The position numbers and the translations under genes were made by a program. From a virus, in IMG/VR virus record IMGVR_UViG_3300036766_000175, positions 1 through 22,079 of that record: a stretch of 22,079 bases of DNA; one strand, written 5' to 3'. The notes below the pieces were generated by a model. The model was not told where the DNA came from. It made no database searches and saw nothing but the letters and a program-made list of their open reading frames with translations. Positions 367 through 19,322 of this stretch are shown in pieces. Each line of letters starts with the position of its first letter. Positions within the stretch are counted from its first letter, which is position 1.

Positions 367-635
367 GGAAAATGATATGAGTACTGACTAGAGTTCTTGT
401 TTTCTGTAAATGCGTAAACTTGTTCACGAAGTGAGTGGGTACTAGCAATAAATGCCATTCCGGAAAATGATATGAGTACTGACTAGAGTTCTTGTTTTCT
501 GTAAATGCGTAAACTTGTTCACGAAGTGAGTGGGTACTAGCAATAAATGCCATTCCGGAAAATGATATGAGTACTGACTAGAGTTCTTGTTTTCTGTAAA
601 TGCGTAAACTTGTTCACGAAGAGACTGAGTACTAG
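367..635. repeat. Near-identical 95-bp tandem repeat, ~2.7 copies
   Basis: Copies start at 367, 462 and 557. The first two are identical over 95 bp. The third is identical to about 621 and then diverges, keeping a related ACTAG at the end. Each junction carries the palindrome TTCCGGAA (458-465, 553-560). The period is not a multiple of three, so any reading frame changes at each copy; the minus-strand open frames here show the same peptide in shifted register, which argues against coding. The high identity suggests recent amplification, or an assembly that may have collapsed or expanded copies. Confidence 0.9.
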
Positions 636-810
636 AACTTGTAGAAAAACAGTTGAAAAACATGTCTACAAAAAAACTTATTTTGGTGAGTGGTCGAATC
701 CTAGCGAGCAATTTTGGATAAGTGAGCTCACACAGGTGAATTTATAACAAAGAATCTTACCCAACGATTCTAGGCTGCAATGCGTCGATTTTTGCATGAA
801 TAGGAGATAG
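636..810 (+). promoter_or_regulatory. Leader of the structural operon, promoter not resolved
   Basis: This is the non-coding stretch before the terminase gene. It is AT-rich and includes a TATAAC hexamer at 743-748, but the nearest TTGGAT (714-719) is 23 bases upstream, too far for a sigma-70 type pair, so no promoter is firmly called. The terminase ribosome binding site, AGGAGAT at 802-808, lies just before the ATG at 811. No tRNA or small-terminase gene is seen. Confidence 0.35.
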
Positions 811-2307
811 ATGAATATATTAAATAAACATGATGGAGCGGACGTTTTGAATGCAGTAATTCGTGGTACACAGATCGAAGATCTGCATGATGAGGAGCTC
901 TTTGCGGCATTGGCATCAAAAGACTATTCCTTTTATTGCCAATACGTAACGCATAGAATCTGGAAGCCTTATAAACATTTGCAGCCAGTTATTGAAGCAC
1001 TTGAAAAGGTTGCACGTAGAGAACTTACTCGATTAATGATCTTTATGCCTCCGAGACATGGCAAAAGTATGGCTGTTTCAGAAACGTTTCCATCATATTT
1101 TATCGGTTTGCATCCTTCAATGCATATAATAATTGCATCATATGGCGATGTGCTTGCACAGCAATTTGGTAGACGAAATAAGCAGAAGGTTGAAGAGTTC
1201 GGAAAAAGCATCTTTAATATATCGATATCTGCTGATCAAGCAAGCAAAGTTGATTGGGAGTTGGCATTACCGCGAGGAGGCGGAGCAGTGACTTCAGTTG
1301 GAATTGGAGGTGCAATCACTGGTAAAGGTGCTGATTTGTTAATCATTGATGATCCAATAAAGAACCGTGAAGAAGCGAACAGCATTACTTATCGGAACAA
1401 AGTGTGGGAAGAATGGCAAAATACTTTGCGTACAAGACTTGAAGGTAAGTTTGCATCCGTGATTATTATTGCAACACGTTGGCATCATGACGATTTAGTT
1501 GGACGATTACTTAATGCTGAATATGCTGCTGTAGATGACTGGACAATTATTTCGCTGCCTGCAATTGCTGAACAAAATGATATTCTAGGTAGAGCGGTTG
1601 GAGAGCCTCTTTGTGCTGAACTTGGCTATGATAAAGCTTGGGCTACAAAAACAAAAGCTGATGTTGGTTCTTATGTTTGGGATGCATTATTTCAACAGCA
1701 TCCTTCAGTTCAAAAGGGAAGCATATTTAAGAGGTATTGGTGGAGATTTTATAATACGTTACCATTAAAGTTTGATAGGATCATTCAAAGTTGGGACATG
1801 GCATTTAAAGATATGACTGTATCTAGCTTCGTCGTTGGTCAAGTGTGGGGCTTAGCAAATGCACGTATTTACTTATTGGATCAGCTCCGTGGACACTTTG
1901 ACTTTGTGAAGACATTAGAAGCTGTTAGTGCTCTTTCAGCAAAGTGGCCAATAAGTCAGAGCCAAGGCATTTATGTTGAAGACAAAGCAAATGGTCCTGC
2001 AGTGATTTCAGTGTTGAAGGAAAAAATAATGGGACTTATTGCCGTAACGCCACAAGGAAGCAAGACTTCTCGAGCGTATGCAGTAACACCATTGGTAGAA
2101 GCAGCAAACGTTTATTTACCGAATGTTTTACTACAACCTTGGGTAGATGATTACATTGCTGAGCTAACGGCATTTCCAACTGGCACACATGATGACCAAG
2201 TAGATGCAACAACACAGGCTTTATCGATGCTTGCAGGATCGTTGCATCAAAGTACTGAAGCATATGAAGTTTTAAAGAATGCATCAATGAATTATATAGG
2301 AGGCTAG
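811..2307 (+). CDS. terL: Terminase large subunit (DNA-packaging ATPase/nuclease)
   Basis: This is the motor that docks on the portal, pumps the genome into the prohead using ATP and cuts the concatemer. The N-terminal ATPase shows Walker A MPPRHGKS (residues 79-86), Walker B LLIIDDP (176-182) and the coupling motif ATRWHHDD (221-228). The C-terminal RNase H-like nuclease shows QSWDMA (D329), VEDKANG (E390, D391) and HDDQVDA (D461, D462, D465), the expected acidic set. The 498-residue length is normal for the family. The ATG at 811 is chosen for AGGAGAT at 802-808. No small terminase gene precedes it; it is either outside the window or lacking. The portal gene follows after one base. Confidence 0.97.
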   Translation: MNILNKHDGADVLNAVIRGTQIEDLHDEELFAALASKDYSFYCQYVTHRIWKPYKHLQPVIEALEKVARRELTRLMIFMPPRHGKSMAVSETFPSYFIGLHPSMHIIIASYGDVLAQQFGRRNKQKVEEFGKSIFNISISADQASKVDWELALPRGGGAVTSVGIGGAITGKGADLLIIDDPIKNREEANSITYRNKVWEEWQNTLRTRLEGKFASVIIIATRWHHDDLVGRLLNAEYAAVDDWTIISLPAIAEQNDILGRAVGEPLCAELGYDKAWATKTKADVGSYVWDALFQQHPSVQKGSIFKRYWWRFYNTLPLKFDRIIQSWDMAFKDMTVSSFVVGQVWGLANARIYLLDQLRGHFDFVKTLEAVSALSAKWPISQSQGIYVEDKANGPAVISVLKEKIMGLIAVTPQGSKTSRAYAVTPLVEAANVYLPNVLLQPWVDDYIAELTAFPTGTHDDQVDATTQALSMLAGSLHQSTEAYEVLKNASMNYIGG

Positions 2308-2308
2308 C

Positions 2309-3796
2309 GTGGCACGACGAAACATCTTTGCAGAGATGGCGTCAAGATTACGAGAAGTTGCAACAAATTGGATCTCGCCAAGTGATATGGCAGGACAATA
2401 TTCGCTTGTCACCGCAAAGATGAATTATACGCTTACTAAAGAACTGTATTACAACACAAATAAAGAGTATAAACTTGGAGCAGGCTTTGCAAAACCTGTA
2501 ATAAACACTACTGTTGGATTTTGTGGCATTCCAGACGTTATAGCAGATGATGATGCCGCTCAAGATGATCTTGATTCTTACATCATTAAATGGAGTGGCC
2601 TTTTACTTATTGCACAAAGAAACTGTTTGAGAGATGGTGATTCTTACATTAGATTTATGAAGTTAAAGAATGATTTAGTACTATTCAAAGGTGAAGAAAC
2701 AACGCTTCAGGCATTTTTGATTTCACCTGAATATGTGACAATTATTGCAGACGTCATTACAGGTGAAGCTGAAAAGTATATTATTAAAACTCCTGTTGAT
2801 TACACAGATGAAAATAACAATCATTTTAATTTTACTGTAATAGAAACAATTACAAAAGATCAAAGAATGGTTTCATACAGTGGTACTAATGTGCCTGCTA
2901 CGCTTACAACTTTACAAGAAGCAAACGCTTGGGGTTTTATTCCAATCATTCACTTCAAGAATTCAGCAGAGCCGAACGAGATGTATGGACGATCGGAGCT
3001 TGAAGTCATTGAACCATTTATGAAAGCTTACCATGATGTATTCATTCAAGCTATGCAATCAAATAAGCTTCATAGCAATCCAAAAGTCAGACTAAAATTG
3101 TCAGACGTTGATGGCTTTTTAAATCATAATTTCACAAAAGAACAAGTTGCAGAGTCAAAGAGGACAGGAAAGCTGGACTTCAATAAGGATATTTACTTAC
3201 TGAATGTCAATGAAGATATGGGATTTGTTGAAGTACAAAGTGCAATTGGATCAGCTGAAGTTTTATTGAAGTTTTTATTCTACTGCATCGTTGATGCTTC
3301 ACAAGTTCCAGAGTTTGCTTTTGGAACTGCAGTACAAAGCAGCAAAGCAAGCGTTTCAGAACAGCTTATTCCATTAGAGAAAAAAATTGCAATCAAAAGG
3401 TTAGAACTTCAACCATTATACCAAAGGCTTATTAGAATGATTTTAGCAATGTTGTCCATTGCCAATGCAAAAACGTTTACTACTTATGGCTGTTCATTTC
3501 AATGGCAAGATGTAAGTCCAGCTGATGAAGTTGCAACATCAACGATTTTATTCAATACTGTGCAAGCATTAACAATGGCTGTGGAAGGTCAGATTGTCAG
3601 CCAAGAAGCTGCAACTGACTTTTTAGCAGATCTTATTCCAACATTGCATCGATTTATAAGTGCTGATAAAGACATAGCAAGCGAAAAAGATAGGATCATT
3701 GCAGGTTTATTACTAATGCAACAAACTAAGAACGGAACAATTGCAGACGTATTGCAAAAAGAGATGTTGGCTAAAACTGGGATAGCTAAACAATGA
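2309..3796 (+). CDS. Portal protein (SPP1 gp6-like)
   Basis: The portal is the dodecameric ring at one capsid vertex through which DNA enters and leaves, the docking site of the terminase and of the tail connectors. Family assignment rests on overall sequence character, 495-residue length, the KLHSNPKV segment in the middle, the helical SSKASVSEQ-LIPLEKK segment (about residues 343-360) typical of SPP1-type portals, and its place right after terL. The start is GTG at 2309, one base after the terL stop, with AGGAGG at 2298-2303. The stop overlaps the next start as ATGA, indicating translational coupling to the MuF gene. Confidence 0.93.
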   Translation: MARRNIFAEMASRLREVATNWISPSDMAGQYSLVTAKMNYTLTKELYYNTNKEYKLGAGFAKPVINTTVGFCGIPDVIADDDAAQDDLDSYIIKWSGLLLIAQRNCLRDGDSYIRFMKLKNDLVLFKGEETTLQAFLISPEYVTIIADVITGEAEKYIIKTPVDYTDENNNHFNFTVIETITKDQRMVSYSGTNVPATLTTLQEANAWGFIPIIHFKNSAEPNEMYGRSELEVIEPFMKAYHDVFIQAMQSNKLHSNPKVRLKLSDVDGFLNHNFTKEQVAESKRTGKLDFNKDIYLLNVNEDMGFVEVQSAIGSAEVLLKFLFYCIVDASQVPEFAFGTAVQSSKASVSEQLIPLEKKIAIKRLELQPLYQRLIRMILAMLSIANAKTFTTYGCSFQWQDVSPADEVATSTILFNTVQALTMAVEGQIVSQEAATDFLADLIPTLHRFISADKDIASEKDRIIAGLLLMQQTKNGTIADVLQKEMLAKTGIAKQ

Positions 3797-11547: not shown

Positions 11548-11562
11548 ATTTGAGGAGGCAAC

Positions 11563-11718
11563 ATGAATTTAAAGAAGTTTTTTAAAGTTTTCAAACTCAA
11601 GAAGGAAGAATCCGTCTTGAGAGCAAGAATTATCAGGGCTGATGGAACGGTTGAAGACCTTGGAGTAATCGCAAGGGGTAAAGCAATTAAAAATTTCACG
11701 GAGGTGAAACATGGCTGA
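11563..11718 (+). CDS. 51-residue basic phage protein
   Basis: A short gene with a strong AGGAGG at 11553-11558 four bases before the ATG. The product starts with a basic helix (MNLKKFFKVFKLKKEES), then LRARIIRADGTVEDLGVIARGKAI. In my recollection the segment R-x-I-R-A-D-G-T-V-E-D-L-G-V begins longer phage proteins whose remainder resembles the next gene here, so these two may be one protein split in two. Its last 8 bases overlap that gene, and it contains that gene's ribosome binding site (GGAGGTG). It would be missed by length cut-offs. Function unknown. Confidence 0.72.
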   Translation: MNLKKFFKVFKLKKEESVLRARIIRADGTVEDLGVIARGKAIKNFTEVKHG

Positions 11719-12064
11719 TGTAACTGTCTTAACACAAAAAGGTGAGGAGTGGGTTGTTGATTTAATGGCCGCAGTGACACAGTATGGAACTTGGGGAACA
11801 GGTGCAGGAACGGCCGCAAAAGGCGACTTAACAATGTTTACTGAAGCACCGGAAGCAAGGATCTCAACAACAATTACTCAACCCGTTGCTGATAAGGTTC
11901 AACATGTTTGGTTGATGACTTCTGCTGCAGGAGCAACGATTACGGAGGCAGGAATATTTTCTGCCATAACTGTTGGAACGATGTATTATCATGCTTCCTT
12001 TACAGGAATTGTTTTAAGTGCTGGTGACAAGATAGAATTCACTCTTCAAAACGAGGTAACTTAA
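11711..12064 (+). CDS. Phage structural protein, tail-fibre-associated type
   Basis: A 117-residue protein with a pattern common in tail-region genes: TQYGTWGTGAGTAAKGDLTMFTEAPEARIS, then DKVQHVWLMTSAAGATITEAGIFSAITVGTMYYHASFTGIVLSAGDKIEFTLQNEV. The G-T-G-(A/T)-x-A element, the I-T-E-A-G-I-F strand and the closing L-S-A-G-D-x-I-x-F-T strand fit a small beta-sandwich that I associate with virion-surface or fibre-like proteins of uncultured phages; I cannot name a family. It overlaps the 51-residue gene by 8 bases and is flanked by hairpins. Virion location is inferred. Confidence 0.75.
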   Translation: MADVTVLTQKGEEWVVDLMAAVTQYGTWGTGAGTAAKGDLTMFTEAPEARISTTITQPVADKVQHVWLMTSAAGATITEAGIFSAITVGTMYYHASFTGIVLSAGDKIEFTLQNEVT

Positions 12065-12069
12065 TTCGA

Positions 12070-12098
12070 GGGGTCAGGGATATAAAATTCCTGACTCT
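12070..12098 (+). promoter_or_regulatory. Hairpin before the repeat-protein gene
   Basis: GGTCAGG (12072-12078) pairs with CCTGACT (12090-12096), and with G-T wobbles the stem extends over 12070-12080 and 12088-12098, leaving a 7-base loop. No T-run follows, so it is probably an attenuator or translational element. CTATTTGAGG at 12099-12108 follows, the same ten bases as after the hairpin at 11522-11547, and supplies the GAGG ribosome binding site of the next gene. Confidence 0.6.
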
Positions 12099-12112
12099 CT
12101 ATTTGAGGTAAA

Positions 12113-14017
12113 ATGGCACATACTTACGACACAAAAGCTGAGACTAATGGCTCTGCAAATCCATTAACTCTGGCTTATACTTGTGGGACTGGGGCGACCC
12201 TATTAGTCCTTTGTATTGTTGTTTCAGGCTCGACTAACAGGACTGGAGGAAATCCAACTTATAACGGAGTTGAGATGACGCCTGTATATGAAAATATTAA
12301 ATATGCTTCGTCTCCTGAAAACTCCGTGAGTATGTATTATTTGTTAAGCCCTCCGACTGGAAGTGCCTACAATATTTCAGTTCCAAATTCTGGTTCGCTA
12401 ACAATGTGGTTGTCTGCTTCATCTTACAAAGCCCAAAGTGGTTACACAAGCGCCTACGATGTAGGAAAAACAAACACAGGACTTTCTGCTAACCCTTCGG
12501 ATTTGATAACTACGACAGTTGACGGAGATGTATGTGTCCAAGTTGTTGGAGATGGCTATAGAGATGTTCCTTCTGGACAAACTCATACTTGGTTAAACGA
12601 CCACGACTTCGGGGCAAATGTTGGGGCAAATCAATATGCCTTACAGGCAACTGCTGGCAATATTACAATGGGCTTTACTGAGTCTTCCGATGACTGGCAA
12701 ATGATTACTGCATCGTGGAAAGAAGTTCTGGGAGCAACTCAAAAAGCACTTTCAGTTGCTATGAGCAATGTTTTATCAAGAATATTGAAAACTTCAAAGC
12801 GACCCTCTGTAACTATGTCAAACGTTCTCACAAGAGTTAGAAAAATAAGCAAGTTTCCTTCTATTACAATGGTTAATAATCTTGTTTTCAGCAAGGGAAA
12901 ACTTTTGAGTAAAGCAATTTCAATAACAATGGTTAATGTTTTAAATATTGCAAGGTCTTTTATTAAAGTTAAAACTTTGTCGGTTATCTTGACTTCAGTT
13001 TTAGGTATAAGTAAAAAAATTAGTAAATTTCCTTCAATTATTTCAGTTGGAATTTTATCTATTAGAAAGCAAATTAAGAAAAATCTTTCAATAACAATGG
13101 TTAATGTGCTTACAAAGGTTAGAAAGATTTTAAAAACTTGTTCAGTTGCTATGGTAACTATTTTAGTTATTCTATACCAAAAAATATTAGGAAAAGTCTT
13201 GTTAGTTATAACCAGTAATGTTCTTGCAATTCAAAAAACAGCAAAGAAAATTCTCTCACTTATTTCGAGTTACCCTGTTGTTCTATTCAAGGGATTTTAT
13301 AAATCTGTTTCTGTTGTGTTGACAAGTGTTTTAAGTGTGAGCAAAAGGGTTGAGAAAAGCCTTTCAGTTGTTTTAGCAAGTGTGCTGTCAATTCTTAAAG
13401 GTCACATATTCATTAAATCTCTGTCAGTTATTTTACAGAGCGTTTTAGGTATTGCAAAGCAAATAAGGAAAAATCTCACTGTAACTGTATCAAATATTCT
13501 TACTATTATTTATCATAAAATCTGGATAAAAGTCTTATCAGTATTTTCTGCTGGCGTTCTATCTATCAGTAAGAAAGTTAGCAAAATACTTTCAGTTATA
13601 ATGGACAATCTTTTATCTATTGCTCATCAGTTTATTGCTGGCGGGGCAATTCAAAAAAGTCTTTCTGTTGTTTCAGAAAATCTTTTATCTATGCAAAAAG
13701 AAGTTAGCAAAATGCTTTCAGTAGTAATGCAGAACATTGTAACTCTTTCAAAGCAAAATACAGGAACTGTATACAAGTCTCTCTCAGTAGTCTCATCTAA
13801 TATTCTTAATCTTTCAAGGGGAATTTTTAAATCATTGTCGACAGTTATGCAAAACGTACTTTCTCTTGCTAAGAAAGGTAAACGAATAGTTGTAAATATA
13901 ATGATAGTGGTAAAAGAGCGTCGATTTTCTGGGTCACATAAAGATCAAATGCAACACGGCGTTGTCGTAAAAGAGAAACAACACGACGTTGTCGTAAGGG
14001 AGCATGAATATGATTAA
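12113..14017 (+). CDS. Repeat protein: beta-rich head plus ~20 K-x-L-S-V repeats
   Basis: Residues 1-207 form a beta-rich globular domain (ATLLVLCIVVSG, NPTYNGVEMTPVYE, DDWQMITASWKEV), a lectin- or jelly-roll-like pattern often seen in virion surface proteins. Residues about 211-590 are roughly twenty tandem repeats of 18 residues, some lengthened to 20, 22 or 24, with consensus K-x-L-S-(V/I)-x-M-x-N-V-L-S-I-x-K-x-x-x. Length changes are always even. Each repeat holds two short hydrophobic strands separated by polar or basic residues, suggesting a beta-solenoid or fibrous rod; a membrane-active role is an alternative given its basic, hydrophobic nature. Residues about 591-634 are charged, with the element V-V-V-(K/R)-E twice. 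No signal peptide. GAGG at 12105-12108 is a modest ribosome binding site. I infer a virion appendage; function is not known to me. Confidence 0.85.
   Translation: MAHTYDTKAETNGSANPLTLAYTCGTGATLLVLCIVVSGSTNRTGGNPTYNGVEMTPVYENIKYASSPENSVSMYYLLSPPTGSAYNISVPNSGSLTMWLSASSYKAQSGYTSAYDVGKTNTGLSANPSDLITTTVDGDVCVQVVGDGYRDVPSGQTHTWLNDHDFGANVGANQYALQATAGNITMGFTESSDDWQMITASWKEVLGATQKALSVAMSNVLSRILKTSKRPSVTMSNVLTRVRKISKFPSITMVNNLVFSKGKLLSKAISITMVNVLNIARSFIKVKTLSVILTSVLGISKKISKFPSIISVGILSIRKQIKKNLSITMVNVLTKVRKILKTCSVAMVTILVILYQKILGKVLLVITSNVLAIQKTAKKILSLISSYPVVLFKGFYKSVSVVLTSVLSVSKRVEKSLSVVLASVLSILKGHIFIKSLSVILQSVLGIAKQIRKNLTVTVSNILTIIYHKIWIKVLSVFSAGVLSISKKVSKILSVIMDNLLSIAHQFIAGGAIQKSLSVVSENLLSMQKEVSKMLSVVMQNIVTLSKQNTGTVYKSLSVVSSNILNLSRGIFKSLSTVMQNVLSLAKKGKRIVVNIMIVVKERRFSGSHKDQMQHGVVVKEKQHDVVVREHEYD
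12743..13882 (+). repeat. ~54-bp coding repeats of the repeat protein
   Basis: About twenty degenerate units encode the K-x-L-S-V repeats. The phrases (C/T)TTTC(A/T)GTT and AATGTTTTA/AATCTTTTA recur at about 54- to 72-base steps. Synonymous positions have drifted, so units are similar in protein more than in DNA, indicating an old array kept by selection rather than a recent expansion. Confidence 0.8.
13952..13997 (+). repeat. Short direct repeat (27-bp step) with internal inverted repeat
   Basis: CAACACGGCGTTGTCGTAA at 13952-13970 recurs as CAACACGACGTTGTCGTAA at 13979-13997, one base different. It encodes Q-H-(G/D)-V-V-V-(K/R)-E twice at the C-terminus of the repeat protein. Within each copy CAAC and GTTG can pair. 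Probably a small tandem duplication in coding sequence. Confidence 0.7.
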
Positions 14018-14318
14018 TGAAGAATTGCTTAAAGTTGATGTAGTTGTTGGAGACTTTGGATATGATTTTGTCTTTACACTATATCAGGAAGATGAAGTTA
14101 CTCCATTTGATTTAACAGAGTATGAACCTCATTTAGTTACATCACTATTTGACGTAGTAATGGAAAAAACAGCCACCCCAACAGATGGCAAGTGTTCTTA
14201 TACACTTGACGCGAATATATTTACAGCAATAAAAAAGATTTACGAAGCAAGAATGCGTTTATTAAAAGCAAACACAGTAGCAAGAACAGTTTTTAGATTT
14301 TATATTGTAACTATTTAA
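14010..14318 (+). CDS. Baseplate upper protein-type (BppU N-terminal-like) domain protein
   Basis: A 102-residue protein from ATG 14010, preferred because AAGGGAG at 13996-14002 then lies 7 bases upstream; ATG 14004 would add two residues with almost no spacing. The pattern VGDFGYDFVFTLYQEDEVTPFDLT, KCSYTLDANIF and YEARMRLLKANTVARTVFRFYIV matches the N-terminal domain of phage baseplate upper proteins, which normally anchors a receptor-binding or fibre protein to the tail. Here the domain stands alone, right after the repeat protein (8-base overlap), suggesting it anchors that protein to the virion. The anchoring role is inference. Confidence 0.77.
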   Translation: MINEELLKVDVVVGDFGYDFVFTLYQEDEVTPFDLTEYEPHLVTSLFDVVMEKTATPTDGKCSYTLDANIFTAIKKIYEARMRLLKANTVARTVFRFYIVTI

Positions 14319-14912: not shown

Positions 14913-17587
14913 ACTTAGGTAGTATTTGGGCTGAAATTCGTATAAAAACTGATCAATTGCAAGCTGATGTTGCAAAAGCTCAAGGACTAATAACTGCTGC
15001 TGAAAAAAGCACAGAAGCTGCTGCAACTAAAATTTCAACAGCGGCTGACACACAAATGGCAGCTTTTTCAGCACATATGGAAACTGTTGCAAATAAGATT
15101 AAGACTACAGGCCAGAATATTTCAAAAATTGGAACTCCTCTTCTTATTGCTGGCGCAGCTATGACGGCTGCTATTGGATTACTGGTTAAAGCTGCAGCAG
15201 AAGGAGAAGTTGCGGAGACAAGACTTGCAACAGCTTTGAAAGCAACAGGTCAATATTCAGAAGAAAATGTAAAGAGTTTGATTAAACTTTCTGAGAATAT
15301 GGCAGACCTTTCAGGTATTTCACACGATTCAATTCAGCAGATGATGGGTTTCGGTTTGCAGTTAGGTTTTACAAAAGAACAAGTAGAAAAATTGACTCCT
15401 AAAATTCTCGATTATGCTTCTGCGACAGGAAAAGACTTGGAAACTTCAATACGCTTGGCAAAAGCTGCAATGGAAGGTAATGTAGGAGCTCTTGATCGAG
15501 TTGGAATATACATAGAAAAAGCGAAAGATGGAACAGTCGATTTTAATAGCGTTTTGAATGCTTTTGCAAGCTATGCAGGAAGTGCAGAAGCAAAAGGTAA
15601 TACGCTTGCTGGCCAAATTGGTCGTTTAAAAGAGCATTATGATAGGTTGGCAGAAACATTAGGAACAACGTTAATTCCTGTAATAAAAGATTTGATTGAT
15701 AAATATCTCGTACCTTTGATTGATAAAATAACTAAGCTTCCACCAAAAACTTTAGAGAATATAGTCAAATTTACAGCACTTGCAGGAGTTATCTTGCTTG
15801 TTGGTGGTACAACAATGAAACTAATTGGCTTTGTAACTTCACTTACTTCATCAATTATACTGCTTATTCCACAGCTTCAAGCTTTAGGAGTTACTTTTAA
15901 TATTGCACTTGGTACAGTTGGATGGCTTGTTCTTGCTGTTGCTGCTGTCGCTTTACTTGCTGCACACTGGGATGATGTTGCAGATGCTTTATATAGAGCT
16001 ACAGATGCTCAGTTGGGTTATGAGAAAGTTACTCCTGTGACTTATCCAGGAGAAACGCATCTAAGAGCGCCAGTAGAAGGAGAGCCTGGATATGTACCAA
16101 AAACAGCAGCACAACAAGCGAAAGAAGATGCAGATGCAGTTCTAGACGCAGAAAAAAAAGCTGCAGATGCAAAAGTAGCGTTAAATGCAGATTTGGCTGA
16201 TAGGATTTATGCACTGACTCATACAGAACTGCAAAACAAACTTCACGCTATAGATGTGCAAGCGGCTGCAGATTTGGATGCTGGGAAAGACGCTGTGAAA
16301 GTTGCTATTTGGGTTAAGGATGCCAAGGCACAGGCTGAGAAGGAGACAGCAGCAGAGGCCTTAAAAATAACCCAGGATAATGCCACAAAAATTTCACAAG
16401 TCAATGCAGACTTAGATGATAAACTCTATGCACTTAGTCATAGCACAATTGAAAATCAGATTCGTGACCTTGCCAAGGAGCGTGATGCAGCAATCGCTGC
16501 TGGAGGTTCGAAGTTAGAAGCTGCCAAGGTGTATGCGCTTGCTTCAGAAAAGGTTTATGCTGATGCACGGATAGAAGCCAATCAAAAGGCTACTGATTTG
16601 ATAGCAAATTTTGAAAGTAATTTGACTGAATATTTAAGAGACCTCCATCAACGGGAAATGGATTTTGCGATCAAGTCAATAGAGAAAGAACGCGACGCTA
16701 AGCTTAAATCTATTCAAAAAGAGATGGATGCAGTCCAGAAACAATACGATGACGCTATCGATAAAATTAATAAAGAAAGAGATGCAAGGTTAGGAATAAT
16801 TGATGAAAGAATTGCTAAGCTTCAAGAACAACACGAAAAGGAGCAGAGGTCTGAAACTTTAGCCGGATTAAATCAAGCGGTTGCAGAAGCACAAACTGCT
16901 GAAGAGCGAGCGGCAGCAGAGAGAGACCTGAATAAACAGATAGCAGAGTGGGGATATGAGGATACTCTTGAGAGATTGAGAAAAGAGGCAGATGCAGTAC
17001 GGGCAGCAGCAGAAAAAGAAACAGGTATCGCCGAAGAAACATATAAGAATGATATGAAACAGAAAGAGGAAGAAGTTAAAGAATGGCAGAGTTTTTATGA
17101 CGACAAAGTAACTGCAACGCAAGAGTTTTATGCTGATCTAATGCTTCAAAGAAATATTGATGCAGAAAAACAAAAATGGTTAGCAGGAAAAACAAATACA
17201 GAAATTTTAGATAAGTTGAGAAAGACAGAAGGTCAGTGGGCTGCTCTTGGCTCAGAAATTGGAGATGCTTTTTGGGGTAATTTAATGAGTGGAATAACTA
17301 ATTTAAAGGACTTGTTAAAACTTATAGGAGAATTGCCTATTGGTGGTGGACATGGTGGTTTTGCTCAAGGTGGAGCAGTTTATGGTCCTACTCTTGCATT
17401 GTTAGGAGAAACAGCAACACCAAGCAATCCTGAAATAGTTATTGCTCCTGGAGCTGGTGGTGGTTCAAATATTGAGTTTATTCTTCGCGAAGTTTTAGAT
17501 CAGATGAGAATACTTAATGCTAGAACAATGCCGGATGTCAAGAGCGGAATTGCTAATTCGATTAGCGGTTTGGGAGGAAAAATCTAA
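14909..17587 (+). CDS. Tail tape measure protein
   Basis: Sets tail length and is thought to help DNA pass the cell envelope at infection. The 892-residue protein has an N-terminal helical region with a hydrophobic segment (about 77-95), a long middle of small helices, and a strongly hydrophobic zone (about 285-352, ALAGVILLVGG to VGWLVLAVAAVALLAA) typical of tape measures. A long Lys/Glu/Ala-rich coiled coil spans about 400-760 (IEKERDAKLKSIQKEMD and following). The C-terminus has the usual glycine-rich GGFAQGGAVYGPTLALLGE and NPEIVIAPG. Residues about 425-449 and 498-522 are an internal duplication. Start is GTG 14909 with GGGAGGAG at 14893-14900, overlapping the chaperone-extension stop. 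At about 0.15 nm per residue a tail near 130 nm is expected. Confidence 0.95.
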   Translation: MNLGSIWAEIRIKTDQLQADVAKAQGLITAAEKSTEAAATKISTAADTQMAAFSAHMETVANKIKTTGQNISKIGTPLLIAGAAMTAAIGLLVKAAAEGEVAETRLATALKATGQYSEENVKSLIKLSENMADLSGISHDSIQQMMGFGLQLGFTKEQVEKLTPKILDYASATGKDLETSIRLAKAAMEGNVGALDRVGIYIEKAKDGTVDFNSVLNAFASYAGSAEAKGNTLAGQIGRLKEHYDRLAETLGTTLIPVIKDLIDKYLVPLIDKITKLPPKTLENIVKFTALAGVILLVGGTTMKLIGFVTSLTSSIILLIPQLQALGVTFNIALGTVGWLVLAVAAVALLAAHWDDVADALYRATDAQLGYEKVTPVTYPGETHLRAPVEGEPGYVPKTAAQQAKEDADAVLDAEKKAADAKVALNADLADRIYALTHTELQNKLHAIDVQAAADLDAGKDAVKVAIWVKDAKAQAEKETAAEALKITQDNATKISQVNADLDDKLYALSHSTIENQIRDLAKERDAAIAAGGSKLEAAKVYALASEKVYADARIEANQKATDLIANFESNLTEYLRDLHQREMDFAIKSIEKERDAKLKSIQKEMDAVQKQYDDAIDKINKERDARLGIIDERIAKLQEQHEKEQRSETLAGLNQAVAEAQTAEERAAAERDLNKQIAEWGYEDTLERLRKEADAVRAAAEKETGIAEETYKNDMKQKEEEVKEWQSFYDDKVTATQEFYADLMLQRNIDAEKQKWLAGKTNTEILDKLRKTEGQWAALGSEIGDAFWGNLMSGITNLKDLLKLIGELPIGGGHGGFAQGGAVYGPTLALLGETATPSNPEIVIAPGAGGGSNIEFILREVLDQMRILNARTMPDVKSGIANSISGLGGKI

Positions 17588-17588
17588 T

Positions 17589-19322
17589 ATGATTTATTTA
17601 AAAACGCTTACACAAACGTATCCTTTACCCGAAAGAACTTCAAAAAGCAGCCCGATGGATTATTTTTCTTATCACCAACCGTTTACTGATTTAAACTATG
17701 GATTCCTTCTTGGTTTAGAACCTCAAGAGCTTACGGTTCAGTTAAGACCTTTAGACTTGTCAATTCCTTTTAACGATGTCATTTATGTATCATTTGATAA
17801 TATAACTTGGCAAAGAGTTATTGCTATTAAAGTTCTAGATTTTAGTTTGCCATTCAAAGGAGCACATTATCCACTTACGTTAAGGATAGTTGCTTCTCCT
17901 TTAAGACTTGGAACTACTCACGCTTCAGGCAATATCTGGGGACTGAATGCTACACCTAATTTAGTAAACGCTGGAAATCACACAGCCTATGCTAAATTAG
18001 TTTACTATGCGCCAAGACTTTATTTTCCTTTAACTCAAAACTTGATAGACTTTGCAGGTTCAAGTATTGCTTTGACAAATGCAGCCTCCAAGACTTATCA
18101 AGGCGTAAGTTATCCTGCAAATACTCCAATTTTTAATTTGGGACTTTATTTAAGCAATGAATTTGCAGATGTGGCTAAATTAACTTTTTATAATTCAGCA
18201 ATACACACGATTATTGCTCAAATAAAATCTACTCGTTATCCAACTGACTGGGTCATTGGTGCAGGTGAAGGGACTCCAAACTTATTAACAGCTAATCAGT
18301 CAAATGCTGAAGTAGATACATCAGGAATGAGTGGCACTGGAGGAACTTTTTCGAGAACTACGACCGCAGGAGAGTTTTATGCAGGAATAGCTGGATTTAA
18401 AATAGTTTCAACAGGTTCAAATGATATCTCTATTCAGACCTCAACAAAAACTACAGGTTTAACTGCAGGAAAATACTATTGTTTTAGTGTTTATGCAAAA
18501 TCCTCTACTACTGCAAAAAATTGGTACGTTAAAATTTATTGGTATGATGCAGCACACGCACTTATATCTGCTATAAACTCAACTTTAGTTCCAGCCTTAA
18601 CTTCATTCACAAGATTATTGGTTATAGGTAAGGCACCAGCAAATACCGTAGAATGTACAGTATTCATTAAATTAGTAGCCTCAGTTGTAAACGATGTTCT
18701 TTATATAGATAACTTAATGTTTGAACAGATAAACGAAACGACCATAACAGTTTGGGATGATGGACTTAAAAACAAACTTTACATAGACATACCAAATAAT
18801 CTTTTAAAGTGGACTGATTATACTTCAACGATTCAATGTGCTTTTCCAACAGACCAATTCTTACAAGAAAACTCAAGTTATACGAGAAAAACTATAACTA
18901 TCGTTGCTATTCATAATGGTTCTACAAAAGAAATTCACTGCAAATATGATGGTGGAACTTTTAATGATGGTTCTGGAGCTTTGGATTTATTGGTTTGGAC
19001 GAATCAAATAACTTTAGGACGGTTTGATGGTTCTTTATTTAATCTAATTCAATATCCTTATGTCTTGAGCGCTTCTAATTATGGAAGTCTGAACTTTACT
19101 CTCAATCCTTTGAAGTTTAATAACTTCTATATAGCGAATAAGACTGCTGGAGTAATTGTTTACGAGAATGGTATTTTAACAGATGAGAACGGGAACGATA
19201 TTACAGGACTTGTAAGCGGAAGTTTAATTGAATTTTTGCCTTCTGTTTCTACGCAAGTTCAAATGACCGATGGACTTTCTGGTAAGTGGAATGTGTCAGT
19301 TAATGACTGCTATTTTCCATAA
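17589..19322 (+). CDS. Distal tail-like protein with nested lectin-like and CBM-like inserts
   Basis: Lies directly after the tape measure, the place of the distal tail (Dit) protein. Start ATG 17589 is served by GGGAGG at 17572-17577; the open frame further upstream lies inside the tape measure gene. The 577 residues are far more than a classical Dit (about 250). Ends (about 1-120 and 510-577, closing with SGKWNVSVNDCYFP) look Dit-like. Residues about 144-220 and 383-510 look like the two halves of a LamG/concanavalin-type lectin domain (ANTPIFNLG; ITLGRFDGSLFNLIQYPYVLS). Between them, about 228-382, sits a carbohydrate-binding-module-like jelly roll (NLLTANQSNAEV, GKYYCFSVYAKSS, VKIYWYDAAHALIS, LYIDNLMFEQ). 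Such 'evolved' Dits bind host sugars. Domain calls are from pattern only. Confidence 0.78.
   Translation: MIYLKTLTQTYPLPERTSKSSPMDYFSYHQPFTDLNYGFLLGLEPQELTVQLRPLDLSIPFNDVIYVSFDNITWQRVIAIKVLDFSLPFKGAHYPLTLRIVASPLRLGTTHASGNIWGLNATPNLVNAGNHTAYAKLVYYAPRLYFPLTQNLIDFAGSSIALTNAASKTYQGVSYPANTPIFNLGLYLSNEFADVAKLTFYNSAIHTIIAQIKSTRYPTDWVIGAGEGTPNLLTANQSNAEVDTSGMSGTGGTFSRTTTAGEFYAGIAGFKIVSTGSNDISIQTSTKTTGLTAGKYYCFSVYAKSSTTAKNWYVKIYWYDAAHALISAINSTLVPALTSFTRLLVIGKAPANTVECTVFIKLVASVVNDVLYIDNLMFEQINETTITVWDDGLKNKLYIDIPNNLLKWTDYTSTIQCAFPTDQFLQENSSYTRKTITIVAIHNGSTKEIHCKYDGGTFNDGSGALDLLVWTNQITLGRFDGSLFNLIQYPYVLSASNYGSLNFTLNPLKFNNFYIANKTAGVIVYENGILTDENGNDITGLVSGSLIEFLPSVSTQVQMTDGLSGKWNVSVNDCYFP

Follow-up and report, generated by a model that had tools for sequence, protein, structure and literature searches.

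The 634-aa product of a gene in the tail module of an environmental-sample phage joins an N-terminal domain (N-domain) homologous to phage minor tail proteins to a tandem array of 20 short units that each open with lysine. Because relatives keep this N-domain yet often carry different 18–21-residue repeats behind it, the array is best read, on sequence comparison, as a shaft or spacer that can be exchanged. We put the probability of this role, that of a fibre or minor tail protein whose shaft is the array, at roughly two in three.

The window, that is, the whole stretch of DNA analysed, is a 22,079-nt virus contig (IMG/VR IMGVR_UViG_3300036766_000175). Family and profile searches place terminase, portal, cement and capsid genes 5′ of the repeat gene and a tape-measure gene 3′ of it, and connector-like proteins and further tail proteins are also encoded. 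Three genes (for the 117-aa, repeat and 104-aa proteins; Table 1) lie between genes for a 308-aa and a 154-aa protein, which their positions suggest to be tail-tube-like and tail-chaperone-like, respectively; the repeat gene itself sits within the structural and tail module, between the tail-tube-like and tape-measure genes. Elsewhere in the window, DNA tandem repeats of 94–95 bp precede the terminase gene (26–208, 1.9 copies; 367–635, 2.8 copies, 98% matching), and a 601-aa tail protein (17517–19322) has a sub-threshold match to an NCBIfam phage head spike fibre domain (E = 0.017).

Table 1. Features of the repeat-protein locus, in window coordinates
Feature	Position	Strand	Basis
Repeat-protein ORF, 634 aa: N-terminal minor-tail domain, 20-unit array and charged C-terminal tail	12113..14017	+	ORF list, translation
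N-domain, residues 1–205; common to other phage and prophage loci compared	12113..12727	+	PHROG 553 and 2106 matches
20-unit array, residues 211–590; 18-residue units, some of 20, 22 or 24; consensus K-x-L-S-V-x-x-x-N-V-L-S-I-x-K	12743..13882	+	Periodicity analysis
Charged C-terminal tail, residues 591–634, ending ...VVVKEKQHDVVVREHEYD	13883..14014	+	Translation
117-aa protein, weakly similar to Gp80 'Podophage GP4 fiber I protein'	11711..12064	+	E = 2.8e-4, 21.7 bits; cut-off 27 bits
104-aa protein, 14-bp overlap with the repeat gene, no family match	14004..14318	+	Family search
Sole DNA-level block shared with the fetched part of IMGVR_UViG_3300035701_000147 (L005)	11553..13272	.	BLASTN

An earlier note on this DNA had described about twenty lysine-initiated repeats in a hydrophobic and basic array within a phage structural region, and each of these points, like the limits it gave for the array, proved exact or was borne out. 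The units begin at residues 211, 229, 247, 267, 287, 305, 323, 341, 361, 379, 397, 415, 435, 453, 473, 491, 515, 533, 555 and 573, and lysine opens all 20. At a lag of 18 residues, 25% of the array is identical to itself, compared with about 10% in shuffles (z = 10.5); a Markov null preserving neighbour frequencies gave z = 10.1, a level reached by none of 300 shuffles. GRAVY is +0.68, and 56 Lys and Arg stand against 4 Asp and Glu in the 380 residues, making the array strongly basic, with hydrophobic stretches of about 13 residues flanked by basic clusters. When the units of the window are pooled with those of its closest relative (L002; 37 in all), Lys occupies position 0 in 36, Ser position 3 in 30, Val or Ile position 4 in 33, Asn position 8 in 25, Val or Ile position 9 in 31 and Leu position 10 in 30; Val and Ile interchange at positions 4 and 9 and Asn, Ser and Gly at position 8, and proline recurs at position 2. 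The same note had unit lengths changing in steps of two. This holds for all 19 spacings in the window (18, 20, 22 or 24 residues) but for only 14 of 16 in L002, where the other two are 23, so that even spacing is not a general rule. A DNA tandem-repeat finder run on the window reported nothing within the array, from which we conclude that the units diverged anciently rather than arising by recent DNA expansion.

The K-x-L-S-V unit is absent from every family library searched. The array matched nothing in Pfam or NCBIfam, nothing in the PDB by sequence or by profile at E values up to 1, solved solenoids included, and nothing among INPHARED phages by tblastn; PHROGs returned only a weak tail-chaperone match (E = 0.032). 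As the earlier note had supposed, the repeats match no named family among Pfam, NCBIfam and PDB sequences. The array profile found no counterpart when run against 400 genomes from the phylum to which a prophage-bearing metagenome-assembled genome (MAG) belongs, a phylum that may not be the host's, and a literature search found no description of a K-x-L-S-V repeat. Degenerate DNA patterns for the unit, which cover only some codon choices so that few matches do not prove the unit rare, hit IMG/VR sequences outside the L002/L021 contig by chance, with stops inside the motif or no second unit.

Evidence of several kinds bears on the proposed shaft role. First, the N-domain is homologous to minor tail proteins: residues 4–199 match phrog_553 (E = 6.4e-11) and residues 2–198 match phrog_2106 (E = 5.5e-8), the former over columns 117–307 of 512, short of the repeat segment and second domain of that family. 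Relatives gathered with the N-domain alone, ignoring the repeats, are encoded on virus contigs and, in one case, by a prophage in a Chloroflexi MAG (L051), and a tandem array stands behind the N-domain in 7 of the 14 proteins, window included, several of the relatives being contig fragments. Best lags are 18 residues in the window, L002 and L059, 19 in L006, 20 in L003 and 21 in L051 and L060. The remaining seven have no tandem array at 12–30 residues, which counts against the role. Chemistry varies among the arrays, which are basic in the window and L002, acidic in L006, L059 and L060, and Gly-rich in L003 and L051; nearly every unit in the relatives' arrays contains Gly or Pro. Unit profiles from L003, the Mycobacterium phage phiT46-1 and Virus Rctr197k match each other (p = 0.001 to 0.014), and that of the window matches other arrays no better than chance would (p = 0.14 to 0.77); the trait in common is therefore a similar unit length, and homology of the window's units with the others is unsupported.

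Other repeats were seen in the same family. L007 (7001–8980), one of the seven without such an array, has behind its N-domain a 45-residue repeat of the YALFGGG...VDAYDTSLTRSTPTALSVAR type, possibly a β-propeller; in L003 (ORF 510–3206) a cysteine-rich C terminus, ...CQYAGTKCAVVGKKCRIVGKKCGHPCE, lies behind the Gly-rich array; and in L006 (7001–9427) a FADVGHGTDAF array is followed by a second, different short-repeat stretch at the C terminus.

Second, a comparable arrangement occurs in annotated tail proteins. Searching with the L003-type array matched minor tail proteins encoded by Mycobacterium abscessus prophages, including phiT46-1 gp23 (YP_010050646.1), which covers all 512 columns of phrog_553 (E = 9.6e-154). 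Since columns 117–307 of this family are those that match the window's N-domain, an array beside this domain recurs in minor tail proteins, in either order. Both proteins combine this N-domain type with a short-unit tandem array and are encoded in a tail module, but in gp23 the array (P-S-R-V-A-V-G-T-P-T-I type) comes first, with two such domains after it, and its units have no detectable relation to K-x-L-S-V units (p = 0.24). Minor tail proteins of phrog_13352, with GIASxxAxG arrays (L003 and Virus Rctr197k), likewise consist of tandem units of about 20 residues, and in L003 these stand behind the same N-domain; unlike the basic, hydrophobic units of the window, they are Gly/Ala-rich, near neutral and of different sequence.

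Third, N-domain genes have fibre-family neighbours. The neighbouring gene encodes Gp80 in L008 (E = 5.7e-48; similarity to PDB 8jou, 4.6e-15), the fibre-tail adaptor Gp77 in L051 (E = 5.7e-20, in the slot 3′ of the repeat gene) and an LtfC-like protein in L004 (E = 3.3e-7). Pfam names Gp80 and Gp77 (PF23140, PF23148) after podophage GP4, whose three types of tail fibres are the subject of a paper (J Mol Biol 435:168258) cited in PMC11784390. These tail-fibre proteins are neighbours of the repeat protein rather than its like, and the link is one of gene neighbourhood, which does not of itself prove interaction. Against the role, the Gp80 match of the window's own 117-aa protein falls under the Pfam cut-off and the window's downstream gene matches no family; the corresponding 3′ slot in L002 holds another small protein without family assignment.

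Fourth, the locus has been exchanged between phages and its repeats are under selection. On the closest relative, the 35-kb contig L002/L005/L021, the protein has 588 residues and 17 units, and within the 14.4 kb fetched from it and compared by BLASTN a single block of about 1.7 kb is common to both (Table 1). The N-domains are 98% identical (dS 0.014, dN 0.009), and along the array dS climbs through 0.16 and 0.78 to 1.37 and dN through 0.04 and 0.31 to 0.61. Array dN/dS, computed with a simple Nei-Gojobori script and with the last dS near saturation, is about 0.25–0.44; being below 1, it indicates that the repeats are maintained by purifying selection. A near-identical N-domain followed by divergence climbing in the array is the pattern expected of recent transfer with a crossover within the array or close to it, and the front of the cassette appears to have been exchanged recently, with its breakpoint there. 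The cassette lies among tail genes in both phages, in different places: between tail-tube-like and tape-measure genes in the window and, in L002, with tail-tip genes on one side and an amidase-like gene on the other. In L002, too, the gene for the Gp80-like protein precedes the repeat gene. Finally, a 746-aa tail-region protein of L002 (3192–5432) contains a stray K-x-L-S-V-like unit near residue 170 (E = 8.4e-4), placing the motif in a second protein of the tail region. By eye, another such unit lies near the C terminus of this protein.

Together these observations favour the fibre or rod that the earlier note had suggested among other roles. The 117-aa Gp80-like protein, the repeat protein and the small downstream protein would form a small exchangeable cassette. 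The product would be a virion component in which the N-domain is probably either a docking module on the tail or a ligand-binding module, with the 20-unit array, very likely oligomeric, as an elongated shaft or spacer bridging distance behind it towards a putative host-facing end; shaft length and surface chemistry would vary among phages while the 18–21-residue unit is kept. Against this role, neither of two low-confidence AlphaFold2 models supports a rod, and in place of the C-terminal knob of classic fibres the protein has a short charged tail, which leaves no room for a globular binding head.

Structure prediction yielded no confident model of the array. A full-length AlphaFold2 model built with two sequences reached a pLDDT of 33, with helices drawn in the array at about 35, and four units modelled with eight other blocks (nine rows) gave one continuous helix with mean pLDDT 66, for which Foldseek found no match among viral models. 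Neither model contains a strand in the array. In unit-averaged hydrophobicity the spectrum peaks at 3.6 residues (28% of power; p of about 0.09 by column permutation), and strand-like harmonics (2.0–2.25 residues) are almost zero. Column permutation took the place of hydrophobic-moment z-scores, which we set aside because repetition inflates such scores. Composition points the other way, with mean Chou-Fasman values of 1.135 for strand and 1.019 for helix.

We lean towards a beta-rich oligomeric fibre because of this composition, the interchange of Asn, Ser and Gly at one position, and the Gly/Pro-rich arrays that relatives carry in this slot. A β-solenoid or trimeric β-fibre, with a strand-turn-strand unit and Asn at the turn, comes close to an even chance without reaching it. 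The Asn/Ser/Gly swaps at position 8 and Val/Ile swaps at positions 4 and 9 suit it, as do the relatives' arrays, whose period is similar and which have Gly at a corresponding place. The β-solenoid proposed in the earlier note nevertheless found little backing in the strandless models, the missing period-2 power and the odd spacings of L002; nor do solved β-fibres match the sequence, or GxxSxxxxG arrays show profile kinship (p = 0.24 to 0.77). Triple β-spiral and triple-stranded β-helix fibre shafts build an elongated virion shaft from short tandem units, much as the window's array would, the triple β-spiral being a trimer with a 15-residue repeat and a conserved Gly/Pro turn. The window's units differ from these in length (18 residues rather than 15 or 8), match neither in sequence, have Asn, not Gly or Pro, at position 8 and find no support for such a structure in the models. 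The T4 gp5 helix (PMC4576200) belongs with these shafts.

A long α-helical rod or coiled coil, in which 18 residues would make five turns with a polar Lys/Ser/Asn stripe on an otherwise hydrophobic surface, we consider unlikely. It would account for the predicted helices and the 3.6-residue harmonic with its strand-like counterparts near zero, but AlphaFold2 tends to draw helices when alignments are shallow. With 4 of its 380 residues acidic, Ala at 4% and Val, Ile and Ser very abundant, the array does not resemble a soluble helix in composition, and Chou-Fasman values favour strand; moreover, prolines repeat at unit position 2, nearly every unit behind the N-domain in relatives has Gly or Pro, and spacings of 20 and 23 residues disrupt the helical phase. 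Helix and β-structure are rivals over the fold only, both being compatible with the fibre or shaft role.

That the array is a membrane-active segment, inserting into or perforating the host envelope, had also been raised, and its short hydrophobic stretches amid basic clusters and its charge balance would fit. It is very improbable: a transmembrane array needs hydrophobic spans at least about 18 residues long, the stretches here are too short for a membrane helix, and only 3–5% of 19-residue windows exceed KD 1.6. In other phages the arrays behind the N-domain are, besides, mostly acidic or Gly-rich, so the slot does not demand membrane activity. Disordered or decaying, functionless sequence, to which low AlphaFold2 confidence and fast divergence between the two copies might point, deserves hardly any credence given an open frame, the Lys and Ser conserved across units and the dN/dS.

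Phages switch hosts through swapped fibre parts. Here one conserved domain bears differing short-repeat arrays of near-equal unit length in unrelated phages. As a tentative proposal, which we think has the odds against it, the 18–21-residue arrays behind the N-domain may all belong to one class of phage fibre shaft that has so far gone unrecognised. Members of this class would retain the length of the unit and its fold, and their sequence and surface chemistry, whether basic, acidic or Gly-rich, would be freely replaced to suit hosts. If the arrays do share a fold, they would offer a compact natural system in which to see how a fibre shaft can tolerate almost total replacement of its sequence.
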